Positions 1,951-15,671 of a DNA stretch of 16,413 nt are shown here, in pieces (within the stretch, counting starts at the first letter, position 1; every line of letters begins with the position of its first letter). Below the pieces are notes generated by a model that did no database searches, had not been told where the DNA came from, and saw only the letters and a list, made by a program, of their open reading frames with translations. The stretch lies in contig JAUYMQ010000287.1 of NCBI GenBank assembly GCA_030698575.1, positions 1 through 16,413 on the forward strand. The letters run 5' to 3'. The DNA comes from Deltaproteobacteria bacterium. GTDB lineage: Bacteria > JAUYMQ01. The position numbers were made by a program, and so were the translations under genes.

Positions 1951-2829
1951 ATGAGCGGCCAGACCGGCTCCTCCCCGCCCCAGGATCCCGCCGGCGGCCC
2001 GCTGCGGGCCGAGGATCTCGTTTCCCAGCTCACCGAGCACTACGGCGCGACCCTCTTCCTCGGTGTGCACTCGGCAAGCGACACCCTTGCCCGCCTCGAG
2101 GCCCGCGGGGTTCCGGCCAGGCTCGAGGAATTGGGCTTCGGACCGCTTCACCTCGACATAGGCGCACAGCTGCCGGAGGGACAGACGCTTCGGGTCTACC
2201 ACGAGGCGGCCAACCCGGACGCCTTGCTCATGGAGTTCCGGCTGCGCCTCCAGGACATCGCGCCCGCCCTGCGCCTGGCCAGCGTGGCACCGCTACAAAC
2301 CATGCGGTTTCTCCGTGTGGAATGGGCCCTGCTGCAAAATCCGCGCGCGGAGTTCATGCCCGACCGCCCCCGCCTCCCCGATCAACGCCACCCGGGCCTC
2401 GGCATCGGGCACGAAGTGAGCGCGTTCCTGGACGCCCTGGCGAAAGAGCACCGCCTCGACGGGCTCCTCTTCTTCCCGCAGCACTATCACAACGCCGCCC
2501 TGTACTCGCAGCGCTACGTCTTCTTCCACCCCGCGCGCCAGGGCGCGCACGAGGCCATGATGCGCGACCTGAAGGAGCGCGCGCTGGCCGACCGCTCCTT
2601 CGCCATCGACGGGGGATTCCTCCGGCGCGGGAAGTCCGGCGCCCCGGCTGAATGGAGCCCCAGCGAGATGATCCGTCCCCTCTCCCGGCGGCTAGAGGAG
2701 ATCATCCGCTCACGTTTCTGGTGGCGCGAGGCAAGGGCCGCGCGCAAAGGGACCCGCTGGCGGATCGACTGGAAAGAGTATGAGCGGTGGCGGGCGACGG
2801 AGGAGAGAGCGGCGGAAAGCGGGCGCTAG
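1951..2829 (+). CDS. Conserved-looking hypothetical protein, 292 aa
   Basis: I do not recognise a family. The protein has a Pro/Gly-rich N-terminus (1-20), a mixed alpha/beta middle, and a segment dense in aromatic and polar residues that looks conserved: LRVEWALLQNP (121-131), RHPGLGIGHEV (146-156) and GLLFFPQHYHNAALYSQRY (171-189), with several histidines (178, 180) that could bind metal or act in catalysis. The C-terminal 50 residues are rich in Arg and Trp, which could indicate nucleic-acid or membrane-surface contact. There is no signal peptide or membrane helix. It follows the universal stress gene by 15 bases, suggesting one transcript. Its stop overlaps the stop of the convergent L,D-transpeptidase gene in a shared CTAG (2826-2829). 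Codon use is like its neighbours, so it is a genuine gene. Confidence 0.8.
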   Translation: MSGQTGSSPPQDPAGGPLRAEDLVSQLTEHYGATLFLGVHSASDTLARLEARGVPARLEELGFGPLHLDIGAQLPEGQTLRVYHEAANPDALLMEFRLRLQDIAPALRLASVAPLQTMRFLRVEWALLQNPRAEFMPDRPRLPDQRHPGLGIGHEVSAFLDALAKEHRLDGLLFFPQHYHNAALYSQRYVFFHPARQGAHEAMMRDLKERALADRSFAIDGGFLRRGKSGAPAEWSPSEMIRPLSRRLEEIIRSRFWWREARAARKGTRWRIDWKEYERWRATEERAAESGR

Positions 2830-3437
2830 GGAAAGATCAGGACCGGCGTGCCTACAGCTACGAAATCATACAGAATTCTGATGTCTTCGTCGGAGACCGA
2901 GATGCACCCCTCGGTCCAGTTGATGCGGTGACGCCGGGTGAAGCCGCGGTACTCCCCCTCGCCATGAATCCCGACGTAGCCACCCAGGCCCGTTCCCCAG
3001 GGCGGCTTCGCGCCCCCGTTGATCGCTTCCTTGATCCGCTCGTACTGTCCCCGATCGATGATCCGGCTCACGAGGCCGCGCTGGGCGTCGTCGAGGTTCG
3101 GGTAGCTCAGGCCGAGGAAGCGGAGGAAACGGGATTGGGTGGTCTTGTTCGTGATGTAGTACTCGCCCTCCGGGGTCCGGTTGTCCCCCTGGCGCTCCTT
3201 CGTCCCCATTGGCTTCTTGCCCAGCACGATGGGGAAGCGGCGTTTGAGGATGTCGTTCTCGAAGTAGAGGAGCTGGCGCTTGGCCTTGTAGACCACGACG
3301 GTGGGGCGTCTGTGGGCCGCCGCCAGCACCTCGCCTCCCGCGCTCACCCGGGAAGAGGACGAAAAGCTGAGAAGGGCGCCCACGGCGCAGCCGAGAAGGA
3401 GCCAGAGATAGCGCGCTGGTCGGGTCGTTCCACTCAT
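2826..3437 (-). CDS. L,D-transpeptidase (YkuD domain), exported, TEGC-type active site
   Basis: This 203-residue protein has a short basic N-terminus and a hydrophobic stretch (10-25) that serves as signal peptide or anchor. The YkuD catalytic domain runs from about residue 46 to the end. The family's active-site His is in GIHG (His158) and the nucleophile is Cys178 in TEGCISVS. Most family members read SHGC here; the TEGC/TDGC form with a following VSDEDI belongs to a well-populated subgroup, so the enzyme is expected to be active. The family makes 3-3 peptidoglycan cross-links or attaches lipoproteins to meso-diaminopimelate. It is transcribed divergently from the OprI-like lipoprotein gene. 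No clear ribosome site precedes ATG 3437. Confidence 0.9.
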   Translation of the reverse strand: MSGTTRPARYLWLLLGCAVGALLSFSSSSRVSAGGEVLAAAHRRPTVVVYKAKRQLLYFENDILKRRFPIVLGKKPMGTKERQGDNRTPEGEYYITNKTTQSRFLRFLGLSYPNLDDAQRGLVSRIIDRGQYERIKEAINGGAKPPWGTGLGGYVGIHGEGEYRGFTRRHRINWTEGCISVSDEDIRILYDFVAVGTPVLIFP

Positions 3438-3504
3438 CCCGGATAGACTCGCTTGCCTTGAGAGAGGTGAGCGGCGGGGGACCGGCCGGTCGAGACTTTT
3501 ACTC

Positions 3505-3533
3505 TATACACACTATTGACTGTTTGTTATGAT
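3505..3533 (+). promoter_or_regulatory. Sigma70-type extended -10 promoter of the lipoprotein gene
   Basis: A -35 element TATACA (3505-3510, 4 of 6 consensus bases), a 17-base spacer and a -10 TATGAT (3528-3533, 5 of 6) preceded by an extended -10 TGT (3525-3527) lie in a locally AT-rich gap. Transcription would begin near 3540, leaving a leader of about 28 bases before ATG 3568. Confidence 0.6.
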
Positions 3534-3567
3534 CGCGGCCCATTTCATGAAAGGGGGTGTAGAACCG

Positions 3568-3822
3568 ATGTCAACCTATTTGAGGTCGAAGACACTGTCA
3601 ATGATGGCTGTAATCCTGCTGGCCTCCTCGTTCTCCTTCGGCTGTGCGAAGTGGAAGGAGACCCGGGACGCCAAGGACGAGGCCGTGAAAGCCGCGGCGG
3701 ACTCCATGGCAGCCTCGCAGCGCTCGGAAAGTGCAGCCAGCCGGTCAGAGTCTGCAGCCGCCAGGGCCGAAGATGCCGCCGCGAAGGCGGAGGCCATCTT
3801 CGAGAAGCTCCAGAGGAAATAA
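3568..3822 (+). CDS. Braun/OprI-type alanine-zipper outer-membrane lipoprotein
   Basis: The 84-residue precursor has a signal peptide with a basic start, a hydrophobic core and a lipobox-like ending SFSFGC; Cys26 would be lipidated. The mature part of 59 residues is close to the 58 of E. coli Lpp. It is a continuous Ala-rich heptad-type helix (AASRSESAAARAEDAAAKAE) and ends in EKLQRK, resembling Lpp (KYRK) and Pseudomonas OprI (EKASRK), whose last Lys is joined to peptidoglycan. I infer a trimeric coiled-coil tether. The frame opens earlier at 3529, but that codon lies in the -10 element; ATG 3568 has a GGGGG ribosome site 10 bases before it. L,D-transpeptidase genes, the enzyme class that makes the Lpp-peptidoglycan bond, lie on both sides. 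A strong terminator follows. Confidence 0.88.
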   Translation: MSTYLRSKTLSMMAVILLASSFSFGCAKWKETRDAKDEAVKAAADSMAASQRSESAASRSESAAARAEDAAAKAEAIFEKLQRK

Positions 3823-3865
3823 GCGGAGCAAAAACGTTCCGCTGGGTAACCACCTACGAATTCCG

Positions 3866-3904
3866 AAGCCTCCGCCGCAAAACGGCGGGGGCTTTGGGTT
3901 TTCT
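3866..3904 (+). terminator. Strong intrinsic terminator of the lipoprotein gene
   Basis: A 12-bp stem (3866-3877 with 3883-3894, one G-U pair) with loop CAAAA is followed by a T-rich tail through 3904. It points in the lipoprotein's direction; on the other strand no T-run follows the stem. Confidence 0.88.
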
Positions 3905-3912
3905 TGATCCGA

Positions 3913-4887
3913 TCACCTGGCCAGGGCGGTCAGCTCCGGAAGCTCCACTTCCCCGAATCCCTTCGTCACGTTGACCGGAATGCCGCGCTGATTGCGCATC
4001 GCCCGCCGGAGTCGCTCGCGATCCACCCGCCCCGTCGCCCCCAGCTCCTCGATCTGCCGCCAGGCTTCTCCCTCCCGATTCGGAAGGAGGCCGTAGGGAT
4101 CGTCATGGATCTCCACGAAAACATCGTAGCCCGAAAGGCCGACCTTCACCGGCTGGTAGACGATCTCCACGGTGTACCCTCTTTCCACACGAGCGTAGAG
4201 GTAGTTGATGTCCTCGGGGTACATCCGAATGCACCCGTGGCTGTAGTACCGCCCCACGCCCCAGGGCTTGTTCGTGCCGTGAATGCCGTAGCCCGGAATT
4301 GAAAGGACGAGGCGATACTTTCCCAGAGGATTGGCGGGGCCCGGAGGCACGACCGCCACGGGTTCCTTCATCTCCTTCTGGATCGAGGGAGGGACGCGCC
4401 ACGTCGGGTTGGTTTCCTTCAGCGACACCTTGAAGAAGCCCCGCGGGGTCTGCCAGTCGTAGGGCCCGAGTCCCAGGGGGAACGTCGAGACGATCCCCTT
4501 CGGGCCGGGGAAGTAGTACATCCGCATTTCCGGCACGTTGATCAGGATGCCCTTGTGGGCGCCCTGGGGAACGATGAATGCGCTGGGGACGAGGACGTAG
4601 GGGGCCAGGGCGGGAAGCCAGGGGTCGACGTCAGGATTGGCGATCTCCATCTCGCCGATTCCGACGTCTTCACGCCGGCCGATGTCGAGGAACGTCTCTC
4701 CCGGCTGCGCCCGGTAGACCTTGAGCTCCCCGATGACCATCGTGGGGCGGCCCGAGCCCGGGAAGGCGAAGCCGTGATACCGAACGTTCTCCCTGGGAGG
4801 GGCGTCCATCGATTCAGCGCCCAGAAAAGTGAGGGCGGCGGCGGTGAGCGTGAGAAGACGTCCGAGCGGTTTCACGAGTGATTTCAA
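3913..4887 (-). CDS. L,D-transpeptidase (ErfK/YbiS type) with LysM-like domain
   Basis: This 324-residue exported enzyme has a signal peptide (KSLVKPLGR then a hydrophobic run to about 23), a LysM-like peptidoglycan-binding segment at 56-106 (YRAQPGETFLDIG...IANPDVDPW) and a YkuD catalytic domain at about 110-245. The active-site motif is canonical: GIHG (His203) and SHGCIRM (His217, Cys219, Arg221). A C-terminal extension of about 80 residues has no motif I recognise. The architecture is that of E. coli ErfK/YbiS/YcfS, which attach Lpp to peptidoglycan. The frame opens at ATG 4974, but that would add 29 Arg-rich residues before the signal peptide; TTG 4887 has an AGGGGAG ribosome site seven bases upstream and gives a proper signal peptide. 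It converges on the lipoprotein gene. Confidence 0.92.
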   Translation of the reverse strand: MKSLVKPLGRLLTLTAAALTFLGAESMDAPPRENVRYHGFAFPGSGRPTMVIGELKVYRAQPGETFLDIGRREDVGIGEMEIANPDVDPWLPALAPYVLVPSAFIVPQGAHKGILINVPEMRMYYFPGPKGIVSTFPLGLGPYDWQTPRGFFKVSLKETNPTWRVPPSIQKEMKEPVAVVPPGPANPLGKYRLVLSIPGYGIHGTNKPWGVGRYYSHGCIRMYPEDINYLYARVERGYTVEIVYQPVKVGLSGYDVFVEIHDDPYGLLPNREGEAWRQIEELGATGRVDRERLRRAMRNQRGIPVNVTKGFGEVELPELTALAR

Positions 4888-4955: not shown

Positions 4956-4986
4956 TTGATCCGTGCAGCGCCATTCAGACTACCAT
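4956..4986 (+). promoter_or_regulatory. Possible weak promoter for the archease-rtcB pair
   Basis: TTGATC (4956-4961, 4 of 6 bases) and TACCAT (4981-4986, 4 of 6) are separated by 19 bases in the gap between divergent genes. The spacing is long and the match modest. This is the best candidate seen on the plus strand of the gap 4888-5045. Confidence 0.3.
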
Positions 4987-5045: not shown

Positions 5046-5492
5046 GTGAGCAGAGAGAAATCCGGATACCGCTGGCTGGATCACACCGCCGACGTGGGCG
5101 TCGTGGTCCACGGCGACAGCCTCGAGGCGCTCTTCGAAATCGCCGCGGAGGCCTTGAGCGATCTCATCACCGATCGGGAAACCGTCGAGGAGCGGGAAGA
5201 GCGCAGGGTCGTGCTGAGCGCGCCGGACCCCGAGCAGCTCCTGGTCCGCTGGCTCACGGAGATCCTCGCCTGGTTCGAGATCGACGGGCTCGTCTTCCGG
5301 CGTTTCTCAGTCCGGATGGATGGCGCTCTCAGCCTGGAGGGCCGGGCCTTTGGCGAGGCCTTCACCTACGGCGCGGCTGACCGGAACGCACGGCACCCCT
5401 TCCGGACTGCCATCAAGGCCGTGACCTACCACCAGCTCTCGGTCCGACAGAGCGGCGACGGCTGGGAAGCAACGATCATTTTCGACGTCTGA
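5046..5492 (+). CDS. Archease, RtcB activator
   Basis: The 148-residue protein is a full-length archease. It has the N-terminal signature DHTADVGV (12-19, with metal-binding Asp16), the family's AIKAVTYH block (122-129) and the closing FDV whose Asp147 also belongs to the metal site. In archaea and many bacteria archease speeds up guanylylation of RtcB and lets it turn over many times; it acts in the cytoplasm. The GTG start at 5046 is chosen because the conserved domain begins seven residues later; only a weak ribosome site precedes it. rtcB starts 22 bases after the stop, so the two are almost certainly one transcript. Confidence 0.95.
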   Translation: MSREKSGYRWLDHTADVGVVVHGDSLEALFEIAAEALSDLITDRETVEEREERRVVLSAPDPEQLLVRWLTEILAWFEIDGLVFRRFSVRMDGALSLEGRAFGEAFTYGAADRNARHPFRTAIKAVTYHQLSVRQSGDGWEATIIFDV

Positions 5493-5514
5493 GGTTCGAC
5501 GTCCGGGGCAAAGC

Positions 5515-6978
5515 ATGGCAGGGAAGAAGACAAGACCCCCCATCCGGGTCGAGCGGCTCGATGACTACCGGTGGCGCATCCCGCAGACCGGCCGCATGCT
5601 GACCGAAGGGATCGTCTACGCGGACGACGCGCTCTTCGCCCGGATTCGCCAGGACCAGAGCCTCGAGCAAGTGAGGAACGTCGCCTGCCTGCCGGGTATT
5701 GTCGGCCCTTCTCTCGCGATGCCAGACATTCATTGGGGCTACGGCTTTCCGATCGGGGGCGTGGCCGCCTTCGACCCTGCTGAAGGAATCGTCTCGCCCG
5801 GCGGCGTCGGCTACGACATCAACTGCGGCGTGCGGCTACTCAGGTCAAACCTGACGCGCAAGGAAATCACGCCGAACCTCAAAGCGATCGCGGATGCCCT
5901 CTTCCGCGATATCCCGGCTGGCGTGGGACGCGGGCACAAGGAGTACCAGCTGGACCCGCGTGAGGTGCGGCAGGTGCTCGAGGGAGGGGCCGCCTGGGCC
6001 GTCGAGCAGGGGTTCGGGACGGAAGCGGATCTGGATCACATCGAGGAGGGCGGCAGGCTTGCAGGAGCGGATGCCGGAGAGGTCTCGGATCGCGCGGTCG
6101 AGCGGGGAAGGCGGCAGCTGGGCACCGTCGGGTCGGGAAATCACTTCATCGAGGTCGGCTACGTCGCGGAGATTCACGACGCTGCCGCTGCCTCCGCCTT
6201 CGGGCTCGCGAAAAACCACGTTACGGTTTTCATTCATAGCGGGTCGCGCGGGCTGGGCTACCAGGTCTGCGACGACTTCATCTCGGTCATGCTCGAGGCC
6301 TCAAGTCGTTACGGCATCGATCTGCCGGACCGCCAGCTTTGCTGTGCACCGCTGCGCTCACCGGAGGGGAAGCGTTACCTGGCGGCGATGTCGGCGGCCG
6401 CAAATTTTGCCTTCGCCAACCGGCAGTTGATGGCCCATCGCGTGCGCGAGACCTTCCGCCACACCCTTGGCCTCACGGATCGCGATCTGCGGATGGGGCT
6501 CGTCTATGACGTCTGCCACAATATCGCGAAGTTCGAGACCCACCAGGTGGAGGGCCGATCTCGGCGGCTCTGCGTGCACCGGAAGGGCGCGACGCGCGCC
6601 TTCCCCGGATCGGCACGGGAAGTCCCGGCGGACTACCGGAAGGTCGGCCAGCCGGTTCTCATCCCGGGCGACATGGGACGCCGATCCTATGTGCTCGCCG
6701 GCGCCGAGGGCGCTCTGTCAGCCACGTTCGGCAGCGCCTGCCACGGCGCCGGCCGCGTCATGAGCCGGAACGAGGCCAGGCGAGTTGCGCGGGGCCGGGA
6801 GCTTGTGCGTGAGTTCGAGGAAAGAGGGATCTTCCTGCGGGGCGCTGGAAGGGCAACGCTAGTGGAAGAGATACCCGAGGCCTACAAGGACGTCACTGAG
6901 GTGGTTGACGTCGTCGAGGGAGCGGGGCTGGCGAGGAAGGTGGCCGAGCTTCGCCCGCTTGCGGTCATCAAGGGCTAG
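5515..6978 (+). CDS. rtcB: RNA-splicing ligase RtcB
   Basis: This 487-residue GTP- and Mn2+-dependent ligase joins RNA ends with 2',3'-cyclic phosphate or 3'-phosphate to 5'-OH ends in tRNA splicing or RNA repair. All key residues are present at offsets of 6-7 from Pyrococcus horikoshii RtcB: Asp101 and Cys104 in GYDINCGVR, His210 in GSGNHF, His241 in HSGSRGLG, His335 in CHN, and His410 in ACHGAGRVMSR, which is the residue that takes GMP. Length and C-terminus (LRPLAVIKG) are normal and there is no intein, which some RtcB genes carry at these motifs. It sits directly behind archease. No RtcR-type regulator, cyclase RtcA or tRNA gene is in the window, so the substrate is open; repair of stress-cleaved RNA is plausible. 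Confidence 0.97.
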   Translation: MAGKKTRPPIRVERLDDYRWRIPQTGRMLTEGIVYADDALFARIRQDQSLEQVRNVACLPGIVGPSLAMPDIHWGYGFPIGGVAAFDPAEGIVSPGGVGYDINCGVRLLRSNLTRKEITPNLKAIADALFRDIPAGVGRGHKEYQLDPREVRQVLEGGAAWAVEQGFGTEADLDHIEEGGRLAGADAGEVSDRAVERGRRQLGTVGSGNHFIEVGYVAEIHDAAAASAFGLAKNHVTVFIHSGSRGLGYQVCDDFISVMLEASSRYGIDLPDRQLCCAPLRSPEGKRYLAAMSAAANFAFANRQLMAHRVRETFRHTLGLTDRDLRMGLVYDVCHNIAKFETHQVEGRSRRLCVHRKGATRAFPGSAREVPADYRKVGQPVLIPGDMGRRSYVLAGAEGALSATFGSACHGAGRVMSRNEARRVARGRELVREFEERGIFLRGAGRATLVEEIPEAYKDVTEVVDVVEGAGLARKVAELRPLAVIKG

Positions 6979-9867: not shown

Positions 9868-10407
9868 CTAGGGGTGTGGCCCCCGGCCGCCGCCGTTCAC
9901 GGCGGGGACGTGGGGCCGGGCCCAGAGCTCGTAGAGGGGGCCCAGGATGAGCAGCGCCAGCGTGCCGGCCAGGAGAAAATGGCCCAGGAGCAGGACGGGC
10001 GCCATCCCCGCGGAGAGGAAGCGAACCCCCCAGGGCCCGGCGATCTCCAGCAGGACGCCTGCGAAGGAGAGCCACGTAAGAGCCCGCTTGAGCCCGTCCG
10101 ACACCGACACCATGTAGAACACGTGGCAGAGCACCAGCAGGGTCAGCGGCATCATGAACAGGTGAAAATGCGCGTTCATGAGGAGCTCTGTCGCGCTCTT
10201 GGGATAGGTAATGACCTCGCCTGAGGCGTCCACCGTCCCCCGGTAGTAGCTGGTGATCCCGTCGATGCTGAAGCCCGTCTGCCGGTAGGTGAGGACGAGG
10301 TTCGTCGCGTAGCCGAGCAGGGTGAACAGGAGAAAGAGCGTCAGGACCAGTCGGAGGTTCGGACTGGCCGTGGTGAGCCTGTAACCATTCGCCGAGAAGG
10401 TCTTCAT
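9868..10407 (-). CDS. Four-helix membrane protein, possibly haem-binding
   Basis: I do not recognise a named family. The 179-residue protein has four predicted membrane helices at about 18-40, 78-101, 107-128 and 134-158. Between helices 1 and 2 lies a polar loop with TYRQTGFSIDGITSYYRG and DASGEVITYPKSATELLMN. Histidines 80 and 82 (NAHFHLF), 95 (LCHVF) and 143 (GHF) sit in or at the membrane helices, which is compatible with b-type haem ligands; this is inference. The tail is Gly/Pro-rich. ATG 10407 overlaps the TGA of a truncated upstream copy of the same gene as ATGA (10404-10407). The zinc-ribbon gene follows 96 bases downstream, probably on the same transcript. Confidence 0.82.
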   Translation of the reverse strand: MKTFSANGYRLTTASPNLRLVLTLFLLFTLLGYATNLVLTYRQTGFSIDGITSYYRGTVDASGEVITYPKSATELLMNAHFHLFMMPLTLLVLCHVFYMVSVSDGLKRALTWLSFAGVLLEIAGPWGVRFLSAGMAPVLLLGHFLLAGTLALLILGPLYELWARPHVPAVNGGGRGPHP

Positions 10408-10636
10408 CGTGCGGAATGAGGGTTCATCATCGGCTTGTTAACACTTTTCGGGTAGACGAGCATCTCGCCCGAAGCATCCCCCCGTCCCGATACCACGTGG
10501 AAATCCCCTCTACCGCGAAACCCGCCTGACGGTAGGTCGTGAGGAGGTTCGTCAAGTAGCCCATGAACGTGAGGACGAGTCGCAAATTCGTCGATGCGGT
10601 GGTGAGCGGGTAATTGTCGGCGTTGAAGACCTTCAT
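10404..10636 (-). pseudogene. Truncated, frameshifted tandem copy of the four-helix membrane protein gene
   Basis: Reading from ATG 10636, the frame gives a close relative of the downstream intact protein: NYPLTTASTNLRLVLT matches GYRLTTASPNLRLVLT, and TYRQAGFAVEGISTWYRD matches TYRQTGFSIDGITSYYRG. About six residues of the first helix are missing. At a run of six C on the plus strand (10478-10483) one base is lost; the match continues in another frame as DASGEMLVYPKSV and stops after NPHSAR at 10404-10406, exactly over the start of the intact gene. The C-terminal 100 residues, with helices 2 to 4, are absent. A one-base gain in the G-run would restore a 77-residue reading frame, so a sequencing error or variable tract is possible, but the copy would still lack most of the protein. 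Confidence 0.8.
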
Positions 10637-11175
10637 GGCTTGCGGGCCTGCCTCTCAATCTTGCCGACGATAAGCCCCGGTGGAGCGACGTGGGGGTCCG
10701 ATAGACGATTTCGACCAGGGCCGGCGCCCTCCTCATTCCCCGGTTCAAAGCCCAAACCGACAGCTCGGCAGCGCTGAGGATCGGAATGTCGTGCTCCGTC
10801 AGGAGGGGCGCCTCGAGCGACTTTCCCTCTTACTCTCGCAAGAAAGCGACACATCGGCACCCCGCTCCACGCCGATTTCCTGCAGACCACAGCTCGATTC
10901 CCTTCACGTGGCCTTCACCGTGCACATCCACCACGAAGGCGTTGGGGCGGTCCTTGCCCAATCTCGTTCACCACAACTGCGCTTAGATCTCTTCGTCTCT
11001 CGCGCGGGCAGGGGCTGGACATATCACACCGGCCCCCAGAGGCCAAGTCCGAGCAAAACGGCCCCGCGCGCTCCCATATTTGTTCCGCTCAAACCATCCT
11101 TCACAGCGCCCCGTTGCGGCGGCCCGACGCCGTCTCTCATGCGAGATCATGCCCGGAAGGAAGGCGAGCGGTCGA
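10637..11175. other. Gene-poor stretch with decayed coding traces
   Basis: No intact gene is visible. On the minus strand the frame running down from 10967 reads like protein: KDRPNAFVVDVHGEG and VKGIELW (10967 to about 10890). It is then broken by a probable frameshift near 10885, with the continuation EIGVERGADVSLSCESK in another frame and an in-frame TAA at 10830-10832. It reads again as PLLTEHDIPILSAAELSVW and ALVEIVYRTPT (about 10820-10690). I do not recognise the parent family. This looks like one or two eroded genes. Open frames on the plus strand here have no ribosome sites and low-complexity translations. Confidence 0.45.
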
Positions 11176-11847
11176 TCAAGCGGTGAATCTTTGCCTGACT
11201 ATTCTTCCATGATTCAGAAGAACCTGACTCCCCGACCTGCGACCTATGTCATGATTATGGGTCACCATGAGAATGGTTTTTCCTTCGAGATGGAGATCTC
11301 GAAAAATGTTCATAACCTCTGCCTCGTTTCTCTCATCAAGGTTGCCAGTTGGTTCGTCGGCCAAGACAACTTGCGGCTCGTTGACGAGAGCGCGAGCAAT
11401 GCAAACTCGCTGTTGCTCGCCACCGGAAAGTTGTGAGGGGAGATGGTGCGTTCGATCGGCCATTCCCAATCTCTCCAGAATGGCGCAGGCCTGCTTCTTG
11501 TCCACAATCGAATGGTAGTATTGCGCAAGCATGACGTTTTCCAGGGCCGTCAAGTAAGGTACGAAGTGGAACCCCTGGAAGATCAATCCGATCTTCTCCC
11601 GGCGGAACGTGGCAGCTTCGTCGGGATCGAGGCGACCAAGATCCGTGCCCAACACGAGCACACGCCCCGCCGTGGGCTTATCCAGTCCGTCCAGGAGGTT
11701 CAGCAGGGTGGTCTTGCCGGAGCCCGATGGCCCCATCACGGCCACCCATTCCCCCTGCTCGATATGGAGCGATACGCCGTCGAGCGCGCGGATGCCGCCG
11801 GGGTACACCCGACTCACGTTCTCAAGACGGATGGCTGCCTGCCCCAT
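11176..11847 (-). CDS. ABC transporter ATP-binding protein (LolD/MacB/FtsE type)
   Basis: The 223-residue ATPase has all motifs: Walker A GPSGSGKTT (39-47), Q-loop Gln91 in IFQGFHFVPYLT, signature LSGGEQQR (140-147), Walker B VVLADEP (160-166, Glu165) and H-loop His197 in MVTHNHD. It would power the two FtsX-type permeases encoded just upstream. Family members act as mechanotransmission ATPases on periplasmic partners rather than as classical importers. ATG 11847 overlaps the preceding permease stop as TGATG and has an AGGAGAG ribosome site, so the genes are translationally coupled; the frame is open further upstream inside the permease gene but that is not used. Bases about 11176-11340 have clearly lower GC (roughly 45%) than the rest of the window. 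No terminator is seen after the stop. Confidence 0.93.
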   Translation of the reverse strand: MGQAAIRLENVSRVYPGGIRALDGVSLHIEQGEWVAVMGPSGSGKTTLLNLLDGLDKPTAGRVLVLGTDLGRLDPDEAATFRREKIGLIFQGFHFVPYLTALENVMLAQYYHSIVDKKQACAILERLGMADRTHHLPSQLSGGEQQRVCIARALVNEPQVVLADEPTGNLDERNEAEVMNIFRDLHLEGKTILMVTHNHDIGRRSGSQVLLNHGRIVRQRFTA

Positions 11848-12959
11848 CACTCTCCTCGCAGTGCCGCGGCAACCTGGATTCGAACGGCGCGGCCGCAACC
11901 GAACGCGCTGGATAGAACCGATACGAACATGGTGACCAGCAAGGACGCCACCATGGCCGCCCACTGGGGCGAAACCGACGCGTGGAACACCTCTTGGGCC
12001 ACGCCCTCCGCCAGCGCCGTGCCGGCAGCGAAACCTACCACGGACGCCATCGCTCCAAGTGCGGAGCTTTCGGCCAACAGGAATACGACCATCGAGCGGC
12101 GCTTCGCCCCAAGCGCCAGAAGGAGCGCAAGCTCTCTGCGCCGCTCGGCCACTCGGGCGAGCGCAGCAGCCGAAACCCCCAGCGAGGTCAGCACAACCAC
12201 AACCACGAGCGTCACGCCGGACAGCAGGTTGATCTTTTTCAACACCGACTCCTCGCCATGAAGGATTCGGTAGAGCGGCTTGAGCCGCACTTCGACGCCC
12301 TTTGCGCGGATGGCCTCCTGGAGCTGACCGATACCCGCCGCCCCGCCAGGGACCGAGAGGAGAGCGTAGTGAAAAGCCGCCTCCTCTGGGACGGATGACG
12401 TAACGAAAAGGCGGGCTTCATCCTCGTCACCGGAGTCCAGGATGCCCACCGTTCGAAGGGATAACTTTCGCCCCCCCTGATCCCATTGAACTCCTACGAG
12501 CGTTCCTACTTTCAGCCCCAGCGCGTCGGCAAGGCGCCGACCCACGACACACTCTCCGGGCGCCGTCGCCCGCCGTCCCGTGACCGCCCAGTAGGGGGTC
12601 ATCTCCCGCAGGCCCTCCGGTGACGCGGAGACGACAGCCACCGGTTTTCCCTGAACGAGCCCGACGCGAAGGCTGAGGTGAACAAGATTGGCGAACTGGC
12701 GGCGCGCGACCTCCTCCACGACCGGCCAGCTAGTTCCCGCCCTCCCCAGTCCCTCGGCGGCCGAAGTCGCATGGATGGCCGGATATATGACGGCGTTGGC
12801 CCCCAGCCGCCGCAGATCTGCGCTCACCTTCCCTTCGATCTCCAATGCAATGGTGCTGAAGAGGGTAACGAGTGCCCCACAACACGCCAGCGCCACCATG
12901 ATCCAGACCGAGGTCCGGATGTTCTTGACGACCGACTTACGAACCATGTGAGCGAGCAT
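11847..12959 (-). CDS. ABC transporter permease, FtsX/MacB type (second)
   Basis: The 370-residue protein has the MacB/FtsX plan: one N-terminal membrane helix (18-40), a large periplasmic domain of about 200 residues (41-245), and three C-terminal helices (246-268, 290-316, 333-355) forming the FtsX domain, with the typical ERRRELALLLALGAKRR coupling segment (272-288). It pairs with the permease encoded 9 bases upstream and with the ATPase whose start overlaps its stop. By analogy with Campylobacter jejuni Cj1661-Cj1663, which follow the FTR1/P19 genes, it is expected to serve periplasmic iron handling. ATG 12959 has a weak GAGAG ribosome site; a second ATG lies four codons later. Confidence 0.9.
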   Translation of the reverse strand: MLAHMVRKSVVKNIRTSVWIMVALACCGALVTLFSTIALEIEGKVSADLRRLGANAVIYPAIHATSAAEGLGRAGTSWPVVEEVARRQFANLVHLSLRVGLVQGKPVAVVSASPEGLREMTPYWAVTGRRATAPGECVVGRRLADALGLKVGTLVGVQWDQGGRKLSLRTVGILDSGDEDEARLFVTSSVPEEAAFHYALLSVPGGAAGIGQLQEAIRAKGVEVRLKPLYRILHGEESVLKKINLLSGVTLVVVVVLTSLGVSAAALARVAERRRELALLLALGAKRRSMVVFLLAESSALGAMASVVGFAAGTALAEGVAQEVFHASVSPQWAAMVASLLVTMFVSVLSSAFGCGRAVRIQVAAALRGE

Positions 12960-12968
12960 GGGTAACTC

Positions 12969-14240
12969 TCAGTTGCCGTGCAGCACTTGCGCTGTGCTTT
13001 GGTGGAGTACCTGAGACACCGGCCACAGGCAGGCCACCCATGCAACGATCAATCCCAGCAACGGTGACAAGATCGCCAACACTCCCAGGCTTCCTGCTTC
13101 TCCGCCAAAAACGGCGTTCACGAGCCCCTGGCCCAGTACCGGTCCGCTCACAGCAGCCAACGCACCACCCAGCAACCCCAGTGCGGCTGATTCGCAGGAG
13201 AAGAGCAGCAACACGTCACGGCGGTGGGCGCCGATGGCTTGAAGCAACGCCACTTCCGAGCGCCGCTCGAGGACGGCCGACGTGAGAACCCCAATCACGC
13301 TCAGGCAACAGACGACCGCGGTGAGGCCCCCCAAAATGGTCATCAACCCCTCCATGCGGATGAGAACGGCGCCTTGGGTTTCGCTCACCCGGCGCACGAC
13401 CCGTGCCGCCGATCCGCCAATGGCCTCTTGGATTGCGGCAGCCACCGACCCCGGATAGGGTGTGCAGGACCACCGCTCGTACTCCGCGGGCGTAAGCGAC
13501 GTGGGGTCGAGGCGGTACTTTTCCGCCAACTTGTTCTCCGGTGTGGTCAAGGTACTCACGTCCGCCTCGGAAATTTTTTGAGGCAATCCCGCGAAGTCCT
13601 GGACCGTGGATAGAGAGGCGATGAGGGCCCCGTCTTCGCGTTCACCGGTTACAACAATACCGCGGACACGCAACGAACGCGTCCGACCTGCAAGGGTCAG
13701 CCTCACCCATTCCCCGGGTGTGAGACCGAGCTCACGGGCCGCGTCCACCCCCACCAGGCACTCGTCGTCGGCCTGTGGCCATGCACCCTTCACGTGCCAG
13801 TGACCGTACCCCTTGAGAGAATCGGGCGTGAACGAGACGCTACCCGCTGCGGCGCTCCCATGGGGAGCGCCTATGCCGAGGAGCGGCACGTCCCGCCCGT
13901 CCACCCGCACCTGGACCCACAAACGGAGAAAGACGCCGAGAATATTGTTCCGCCAGAAGAGGGTCTCGAGCTTCTCCATCTGACCCTCATTAAGATAGAT
14001 CTGCCCGATCCGCGGCGCCAACTCGTAACCGCCCACCCTTACGGGCACGGCGCCAGCGGATGGCTCGACCCTGATGTTTGCGCCGAACGCGGAGAGTTCA
14101 CGGTTTATCTTGTCTCGCACGTCCAAACTGAGCGTGATCAGCGCCACCACCAGGGTCATACCGACCCAGATGGTGAGAACGGCCAGGAGCTTGCGTGACC
14201 TCCGGCGCGCCAGTGATCGGGCGAGAATTCGGAGAAGCAT
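12969..14240 (-). CDS. ABC transporter permease, FtsX/MacB type (first)
   Basis: The 423-residue protein has an Arg-rich cytoplasmic start (ARRRSRK), a first membrane helix at 18-40, a periplasmic domain of about 255 residues and three C-terminal helices (298-322, 344-372, 384-408). The FtsX coupling segment LERRSEVALLQAIGAHRRD (324-342) contacts the ATPase. It is longer than its partner, so the pair likely forms a heterodimer. The start follows the FTR1-fusion stop by 15 bases and its stop precedes the second permease by 9 bases, which indicates one operon. The periplasmic part shows no motif I can name. Confidence 0.9.
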   Translation of the reverse strand: MLLRILARSLARRRSRKLLAVLTIWVGMTLVVALITLSLDVRDKINRELSAFGANIRVEPSAGAVPVRVGGYELAPRIGQIYLNEGQMEKLETLFWRNNILGVFLRLWVQVRVDGRDVPLLGIGAPHGSAAAGSVSFTPDSLKGYGHWHVKGAWPQADDECLVGVDAARELGLTPGEWVRLTLAGRTRSLRVRGIVVTGEREDGALIASLSTVQDFAGLPQKISEADVSTLTTPENKLAEKYRLDPTSLTPAEYERWSCTPYPGSVAAAIQEAIGGSAARVVRRVSETQGAVLIRMEGLMTILGGLTAVVCCLSVIGVLTSAVLERRSEVALLQAIGAHRRDVLLLFSCESAALGLLGGALAAVSGPVLGQGLVNAVFGGEAGSLGVLAILSPLLGLIVAWVACLWPVSQVLHQSTAQVLHGN

Positions 14241-14255
14241 TTCCCTTGATCCCCG

Positions 14256-15671
14256 CTACCGGGTGTAAGCCGCCGGGTTCTCCCGGAACATGGCCCGGCA
14301 GCGTTCCATCTTGCAGAAGTAATAGGTCTTGCCGTTTTGGGTCTCGAAGGCAGAAGACTCGTTTCTCTTGAAACGCATGCCGCACACGGGGCAGGTCTCC
14401 TCGATCCCCGGCTGCTCGCCGAAGAGCTCCGCCACCCGGGCGAGCGCGATCACAGGGATGTGGACGTGGCTCGCCGTGGTCTGGGCCTCCAGCGGGATTG
14501 GATTGCAGCCGCCCGGCTGGCCCAGCGTGCGGGGATTGATCACGGCCCCGCAGTTGAGGCAAATGAGATTCTCGCCCTCCTGGATGTAGCCGGAGGAGCC
14601 GCAGATCTCGCAGGCATCCAGGGCGGTCCGTACTTTACCATCCGAGGCTTTCATCGCCAGGAACCGCACCATGTGTCCCCCGGTCAGAAAACCGAAACGG
14701 TGGAGCTTACCGTCGTCTAGCTTCTGAAGGGGGACAACAACACCATCACCCTCTCGGGCGGCAGCTTCCGGCGGGGGAACTTCCTTGGGCAGCATCTCCC
14801 TGGCGTAAGCGACACCCACGACGACCAGCACCAGCAGCGCGCAAACCACGGCTCCGAGCCGATAAAACCATTCCCGTTTCACCCTCGCCCGTGCCAGGCG
14901 CAAGTCCGCGTCAGAGGCCCCTTCGAGGGCGGGGGCCGCTTCGCGTCTCCGGCTCAGGAAGATAAACAACGGAATAGCGACGATGGCGAGGAGGAAGAGA
15001 GAGTTGTTGCGCACCACAGGTCCCACCAGCGCCATGGTCTGCTGCGTCGCGGGTACGATCCCGATCTCGGAAAACTCGTGGTAGCCGTTCACCAAGAGTT
15101 GCACGACGAAGATGCCCAGCACCCACGTCGTGACCGTGAAGAAACGCCGCAGATCCACCTGGACGCTGCCCCGCACGAACATCACACAGAAGAGGATCGC
15201 CGCAGCCAGGCCGACCAGCGCTCCGATGAAGCTCAGCAGCGCTTCCGTCGTCAGGTTCACGGCGCTGAGAAACATCACCGTCTCGGCTCCTTCGCGGAAG
15301 ACCATGAGGAACGCAAAGGCCCCCAGCCCCCACGTTTCCTTTGCGCTCCCCGCCGCTTCCACCGCGTGCTGGACCCGTTGCTCGATCTCCGCATGCAAGC
15401 TCTTTGCTTTGCGATGCATCCACCACATCATGGACGCCACGAAGACGGCCGATACCCAGTAAAGTACGCCCTCGTAGATTTCCTCGCTGATCGTCAGAGC
15501 GTTCAGAGCCACGGCGGCAACGACGCTGGCCACGATGGCGAGGCTCAGCCCCCCGTAAACGGCGCGCTCGAGGTCCCGCCGTGCCGAACGTTTGAGCACC
15601 ACGAGGGTGATCCCGATGACCAGCGCGGCCTCGATTCCCTCCCGGAGCATGATGACGAACGACTCGAACAT
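14256..15671 (-). CDS. FTR1 iron permease fused to DUF2318 and YHS domains
   Basis: The 471-residue protein joins three metal-related modules. Residues 1-240 are an FTR1/EfeU-type iron permease with about seven helices and both iron-binding REXXE motifs (REGIE 10-14, REGAE 126-130). After a further helix (272-290), residues about 305-400 form a DUF2318 domain with CEIC (354-357), CLNC (371-374) and GGCNPIPLE (Cys389), the set of cysteines thought to bind metal or a cluster. Residues 425-471 are a YHS metal-binding domain (CPVCGM 427-432, YYFC to Cys453, Cys458). FTR1 and DUF2318 are separate genes in the Campylobacter P19 operon. GGAGG (15678-15682) lies six bases before ATG 15671. The outer-membrane protein gene ends 21 bases upstream and the permease genes follow directly. 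Confidence 0.93.
   Translation of the reverse strand: MFESFVIMLREGIEAALVIGITLVVLKRSARRDLERAVYGGLSLAIVASVVAAVALNALTISEEIYEGVLYWVSAVFVASMMWWMHRKAKSLHAEIEQRVQHAVEAAGSAKETWGLGAFAFLMVFREGAETVMFLSAVNLTTEALLSFIGALVGLAAAILFCVMFVRGSVQVDLRRFFTVTTWVLGIFVVQLLVNGYHEFSEIGIVPATQQTMALVGPVVRNNSLFLLAIVAIPLFIFLSRRREAAPALEGASDADLRLARARVKREWFYRLGAVVCALLVLVVVGVAYAREMLPKEVPPPEAAAREGDGVVVPLQKLDDGKLHRFGFLTGGHMVRFLAMKASDGKVRTALDACEICGSSGYIQEGENLICLNCGAVINPRTLGQPGGCNPIPLEAQTTASHVHIPVIALARVAELFGEQPGIEETCPVCGMRFKRNESSAFETQNGKTYYFCKMERCRAMFRENPAAYTR

Follow-up and report, generated by a model that had tools for sequence, protein, structure and literature searches.

Does a cluster of three genes in a deltaproteobacterial contig encode a covalent tether between the outer membrane and the peptidoglycan, together with the means to attach and release it? 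The question is raised by a stretch of 16,413 nucleotides (the window; contig JAUYMQ010000287.1 of assembly GCA_030698575.1), in which the gene for a small alanine-rich lipoprotein lies between those of two exported YkuD-domain proteins, here termed LDT1 and LDT2 (LDT, L,D-transpeptidase). A preliminary description of the sequence had proposed that the lipoprotein is of Lpp/OprI type and that the enzymes on either side attach it and form 3-3 cross-links. The three genes are present and adjacent (Table 1), and the core of that proposal is supported with one change of role: LDT1 is less likely to be a second attaching or cross-linking enzyme than a hydrolase, more probably a detaching amidase of the DpaA type. 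We place at roughly 0.6 the probability that the cluster specifies a tether linking the outer membrane covalently to the peptidoglycan, with one enzyme to attach it and one to detach it. Gene order, protein families, catalytic motifs and the recurrence of the neighbourhood across phyla are observed; the functions are predicted by sequence comparison.

Is the neighbourhood conserved? Lipoproteins outside the Gammaproteobacteria were reached by a search of context through LDT2, which was compared with 386 diverse genomes. Strong full-length matches came from genomes G187 (49%), G086 (48%), G261 (43%) and G038 (38%). G187, which belongs to a third, small phylum of which four genomes were sampled, holds all three genes side by side at locus L152: a lipoprotein ending in IFNKIIKK (+ strand), LDT2 (−) and a YkuD protein of the LDT1 type with the motif WTDGCIA (+). 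The lipoprotein and LDT2 genes of G261 are convergent. No lipoprotein was found in the ~600 bp of contig beyond the LDT of G086, nor near that of G038. A homologue of LDT2 is present in 50 of 148 genomes of the G261 phylum (about 20-30 families), from which 59 loci were taken together with 3 kb of flanking sequence per side, as far as the contig reached. An alanine-rich helical lipoprotein is convergent with the LDT at a distance of 13-83 bp in 27 of these loci, drawn from eight families, and codirectional in two more; no further comparable lipoprotein reading frame lies within 3 kb on either side of the LDTs of the 59 loci, and in the loci without one the LDT is mostly a more distant paralogue. 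A DpaA-like gene is also present at three loci of this phylum. One of them, L110, has the exact order and orientation of the window (DpaA-like −, lipoprotein +, LDT2 −), and in L125 and L134 all three genes are on one strand. The neighbourhood, which the preliminary description had thought worth seeking in relatives, is kept in several phyla.

The same-strand loci have features of their own. In L125 (2818-4134, 4707-5696) and L134 the order is a variant LDT2, the tether, and then a DpaA-like protein with a repeat or coiled-coil N-terminal half; the LDT2 variant resembles a lipoprotein itself and has an additional C-terminal part, by eye similar to a SPOR domain.

A similar arrangement is found in Gammaproteobacteria. 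Six gammaproteobacterial genomes were reached from relatives of LDT1; there is no tether at the loci of these relatives (L016-L024), and elsewhere in all six genomes a PF11839 (OprI) lipoprotein is convergent with an ErfK-type LDT. The PF11839 family was found in 27 of 94 sampled Gammaproteobacteria genomes. Examination of these 27 OprI loci (3 kb) shows a convergent LDT in 23, an adjacent DpaA-like YkuD gene in nine and both in six. Two of the gammaproteobacterial LDTs beside OprI (L154, L173) have GCIH and GCIQ rather than GCIR. In E. coli, lpp and ldtE are convergent and 63 bp apart, so it is not quite right that the E. coli genes are scattered, as had been stated. Because the pair of lipoprotein and LDT recurs in the G261 phylum, in G187, in the Gammaproteobacteria and as lpp-ldtE, we regard it as an old arrangement, and by sequence the window is a further instance to which a gene of the detaching type has been added.

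What kind of protein is the lipoprotein? Residues 21-26, SFSFGC, match the PROSITE lipobox pattern, and the mature part has the 59 residues and Arg-Lys end (QRK) first described. The protein falls under the curated cut-offs of PF11839 (17.5 of 23.1 bits) and NF040598 (23.7 of 43 bits), and PF04728 is not reported; its homologue in G517 exceeds the NF040598 cut-off at 62 bits. PF11839 alone misses the window lipoprotein and most of the homologues outside the Gammaproteobacteria, and the window lipoprotein used as query against 59 diverse genomes returned only itself and one weak, unrelated match. When it was aligned with its positional counterparts in G187, G398 and G261, none of 2000 shuffles scored as well in any case, and since this similarity goes beyond composition the gene is considered real. 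Gammaproteobacterial OprI-like proteins resemble it weakly, their scores being equalled by 24-39 of 2000 shuffles, and with E. coli Lpp, where 296 of 2000 did as well, there is no significant similarity. The heptads of the proposed alanine zipper are significant in the homologues and not in the window sequence alone: on the contrast of small or hydrophobic residues at heptad positions a and d, 598 of 5000 shuffles were as good as the window sequence, and at most 12 of 5000 as good as the homologues of G187, G398, G517 and G261. A hendecad pattern was sought in the lipoprotein and not found. The C-termini are alike, with AIFEKLQRK in the window, AIFNKIIKK in G187, AVFQKSMKK in G517, and DRMFEKAMMK and DRMFKKSMYK in Gammaproteobacteria, giving the common motif [IVM]F-x-K-x-x-[KRM]-K or a close form with a lysine end. 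Judged by its context and C-terminus the lipoprotein would work like OprI, with scores below the thresholds of the family models.

LDT2 is the predicted attaching enzyme. Its best NCBIfam matches are PRK10190 (137 bits) and LdtE (135 bits), and its matches among PDB sequences include 9tyw (E=7e-59) and 4lzh (E=2e-36). The motif YSHGCIR fits the YkuD pattern [ST]xGC[IV]R. In the E. coli sequences the motif reads GC[IV]R in LdtA-E and GCYA in DpaA, compared with GCIR in LDT2 and GCIS in LDT1. The tree of 39 YkuD domains parts GCxR from GCx[AS] sequences at a single branch (support 99/97); LDT2 lies with E. coli LdtA-C and LdtE, grouping with the LDTs of G187 and G086, and DpaA is on the side of LDT1. 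By sequence LDT2 belongs with the transpeptidases. The LysM domain attributed to LDT2 was not recovered, as in Pfam the protein gave no PF01476 match with the limit relaxed to E<=1. Its homologue in G187 scores 14.2 bits, under the cut-off of 20.9, and E. coli LdtE 35 bits; LdtA gives none, and LysM is therefore not a strict requirement for the ErfK/YbiS type.

Could LDT2 be mainly a 3-3 cross-linker, with the lipoprotein serving as a free or non-covalently bound periplasmic spacer? E. coli LdtE, despite its gene being convergent with lpp, is a 3-3 cross-linker and does not serve as the chief enzyme anchoring Lpp (PMC12729407); the scores of LDT2 against the LdtE and LdtA-type models are equal, and LDT functions do not align with lineages (PMC10434034). 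Against this, a helical lipoprotein with a C-terminal lysine stands beside this type of LDT in several phyla, which would be hard to explain without attachment, and of just three YkuD matches in the source metagenome-assembled genome (MAG; 4.13 Mb, 91.6% complete), two are at this locus and a single one, LDT2, is of the GCxR type. We consider a spacer beside a mainly cross-linking LDT2 distinctly unlikely. With no other GCxR-type enzyme detected in the MAG, LDT2 may both attach the lipoprotein and make 3-3 cross-links. The third YkuD protein of the MAG (G000:C26, L003 1096-1962) is of GCxA type, with the motif WTDGCIALE, and lies on a branch separate from LDT1.

LDT1 differs in its active site. 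It has no arginine two residues after the catalytic cysteine, and the absence of this arginine marks DpaA-like hydrolases (PMC8263019, PMC10434034); LDT1 is likely to be a hydrolase. It has the DpaA-type insertion in L1 with Lys83, and its L2 loop is short, without the L2 lid segment. Gln86, Arg108 and Tyr131 of DpaA are also kept, and Tyr109 is replaced by phenylalanine. In E. coli, DpaA K83A is inactive, and Lys83, Tyr109 and Tyr131 are needed for activity (PMC10653827). The preliminary description had in the main taken both YkuD enzymes to be bond-forming, one attaching the lipoprotein and LDT1 making 3-3 cross-links. The full YkuD fold and catalytic cysteine of LDT1 agree with that assignment; the loss of the arginine present in all five E. 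coli transpeptidases (PMC8263019) and the character of the L1 and L2 loops make it highly improbable.

The choice is then between two kinds of hydrolase, both of which lack the arginine (PMC8263019). LDT1 might be an L,D-carboxypeptidase like Bd1075, Csd6 and Pgp2, shortening tetrapeptide stems and thereby limiting the donors with which LDT2 attaches the tether. Its closest PDB sequence is indeed Bd1075 (7o21, E=3.1e-5), ahead of 8ikr (E=0.0022). The predicted model of LDT1 (pLDDT 76) has the YkuD fold, superimposing on 1y7m with Z 15.2 and root mean square deviation 1.9 over 110 aligned residues and on Bd1075 with Z 14.8 and 1.9 over 119; among the matches listed the longest alignments are with Bd1075, Csd6 and Pgp2 (119-123 residues). 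However, LDT1 has glycine where carboxypeptidases carry the tryptophan that binds D-Ala, a position aligned with DpaA Met133 (PMC10653827); it keeps substrate residues of DpaA, and its type adjoins the tether in several phyla, as would be expected of DpaA. The carboxypeptidase is on balance unlikely, if less so than the other alternatives. Because the neighbourhood is conserved, an amidase acting on the tether is the better reading, and a DpaA-type detaching enzyme, which the preliminary description had offered only in brackets, is now more likely for LDT1 than either a carboxypeptidase or a second attaching or cross-linking enzyme.

Taken together, a cycle of attachment and release can be proposed. 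After export the lipoprotein would receive its lipid at Cys26 and pass to the outer membrane, and it would span the periplasm as an alanine-rich helix presenting its C-terminal Arg-Lys. LDT2 would attack a tetrapeptide stem and transfer it to the lysine side chain, anchoring the outer membrane to the peptidoglycan, as its family and the conserved pairing suggest. LDT1 would, with less certainty, hydrolyse the tether amide to free the lipoprotein, and attachment and release could be balanced through the divergent promoter region (3438-3567). The MAG has Omp85, so the organism is diderm. Every other genome in the comparison shares only its domain, which places it outside the richly sampled Pseudomonadota.

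Several observations weigh against this scheme. Adjacency alone is no proof of attachment, because the lpp-adjacent ldtE makes 3-3 cross-links. LDT1 scores 23.8 of 365 bits against the NCBIfam equivalog NF040599 (DpaA/YafK), yet this is its best-scoring family, and its fold matches, among those listed (DpaA not being one), do not separate an amidase from carboxypeptidases or transpeptidases. The diaminopimelate (DAP) epimerase DapF (PF01678) was not found in the MAG at 91.6% completeness, and the acceptor residue at position 3 of the stem is thus putative; either there is a gap in the assembly or DAP is made by another route. Lastly, the C-terminal lysine on which attachment would depend is present in nearly all of the relatives, and four of the 29 lipoproteins in the G261 phylum (L116, L121, L123 and L126, of family f275) end in KKH or KKAE. 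An internal lysine may be used in these, or attachment may differ. The f275 lipoproteins keep a convergent LDT at 13-14 bp.

The layout of the locus is given in Table 1. The lipoprotein gene is divergent from LDT1 and convergent with LDT2. With a good ribosome-binding site, one promoter-like site and a strong terminator, the gene is probably transcribed on its own; a single operon of all three genes is ruled out, the lipoprotein being on the other strand. The start of LDT2 is unsure, as the TTG at 4887 and an ATG at 4974 are likewise open. The GC content of the cluster (0.631) matches that of the rest of the contig (0.63-0.68) and of two other loci of the MAG (0.635, 0.674), and there is therefore no sign of recent insertion.

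Table 1. Features of the tether locus, in positions of the window.
Feature	Position	Strand	Details and evidence
LDT1, exported YkuD-domain protein	2826-3437	−	203 aa; motif NWTEGCIS, catalytic Cys codon 2904-2906; YkuD 85.5 bits, E=6.8e-24
LDT1, proposed role: DpaA-type amidase detaching the lipoprotein	2826-3437	−	NCBIfam best family, side of tree, DpaA residues kept
Promoter-like site TATACA-17-TATGAT, TG before −10	3505-3533	+	Divergent intergenic region; weak (pattern scan, 1 found vs 0.4 expected)
Shine-Dalgarno-like AAAGGGGGTG	3550-3559	+	8 nt 5′ of lipoprotein ATG; read from sequence
Lpp/OprI-like lipoprotein	3568-3822	+	84 aa, ends AEAIFEKLQRK; weak NF040598 and PF11839 matches; similarity to G187, G398 and G261 lipoproteins
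Lipoprotein signal peptide	3568-3642	+	
Lipobox Cys codon	3643-3645	+	
C-terminal Lys codon	3817-3819	+	
Intrinsic terminator of lipoprotein gene	3862-3898	+	16-pair stem, 11 GC pairs, T-rich tail; strong
LDT2, exported ErfK/YbiS-type L,D-transpeptidase	3913-4887	−	Motif YSHGCIR; YkuD 86.1 bits, E=4.7e-24
LDT2, proposed role: joining lipoprotein C-terminal Lys to peptidoglycan	3913-4887	−	Family models, PDB matches, tree

Other genes lie further along the window. Adjoining LDT2 (5046-6978, +), Archease is closely 5′ of the RNA ligase RtcB, the usual pair. At 9868-10748 (−) a 179-aa membrane protein has no Pfam match, and a shortened near-copy of its N-terminal part lies just upstream (10427-10636), apparently a tandem duplication of which one copy has decayed. 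The region 11176-15671 (−) looks like an iron uptake locus of the FTR1/P19 type, with an FTR1 iron permease fused to an FtrD-like (DUF2318) part and a YHS-like end, then two MacB/FtsX-type permeases and an ABC ATPase.

How general might such tethers be? According to surveys, Lpp is restricted to part of the Proteobacteria (PMC10628300, PMC10260701), and a review narrows its range to E. coli with its near relatives (PMC11784454). Proteins like DpaA are common among bacteria taken to be without Lpp, where their substrates have been said to be other than Lpp, and PF04728 alone was counted (PMC8263019). Our analysis finds an OprI-like lipoprotein beside an LDT of the attaching type, often with a DpaA-like enzyme, in three phyla apparently outside Pseudomonadota. 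This suggests that a narrow family model, PF04728, hid OprI-like tethers outside the known range. We give about an even chance to the wider proposal, that reversible covalent tethering of the Lpp/OprI type extends beyond some Proteobacteria to several further phyla of diderms, its genes forming a small cluster for the tether and for the enzymes that attach and detach it, and that DpaA-like proteins in bacteria classed as Lpp-less may act on such lipoproteins, which the usual Lpp model overlooks. The clusters supply specific, testable pairs of tether and enzyme. What is new is the distribution and the packaging; the chemistry is already known. Among open-licence papers we found none that joins an alanine zipper with a lipoprotein and a transpeptidase, and an earlier description is possible.

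The locus may finally be set beside the systems that it most resembles. Like E. coli Lpp with LdtA, LdtB and LdtC, and like lpp-ldtE, it combines a small helical lipoprotein ending in Arg-Lys with an ErfK-type LDT in convergent genes. In contrast to Lpp, to which it has no significant similarity, the lipoprotein is alanine-rich where Lpp has a Leu/Val zipper, and the DpaA-like gene lies inside the cluster, whereas that of E. coli lies elsewhere. LDT1 resembles DpaA (YafK/LdtF) and DpaA-like proteins (PMC8263019, PMC10653827) in the missing arginine, four kept residues and its side of the tree; it departs from DpaA in having serine for alanine after GCI, phenylalanine at Tyr109, a long L3 insertion and a score far below the equivalog cut-off. 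With Bd1075, Csd6 and Pgp2 it shares the YkuD domain without the arginine, Bd1075 being the closest solved sequence, and differs in having no tryptophan at the position of the D-Ala pocket. In P. aeruginosa, OprI is served by LdtPae2, which anchors it, and LdtPae3, which probably releases it (PMC10434034), and the likeness extends to an Lpp homologue with an Arg-Lys end and to one anchoring enzyme with one of SxGChA type. The window differs in phylum and in a lipoprotein that scores under the OprI-family cut-offs. Its three genes are adjacent, and the comparison with P. aeruginosa covers the proteins.

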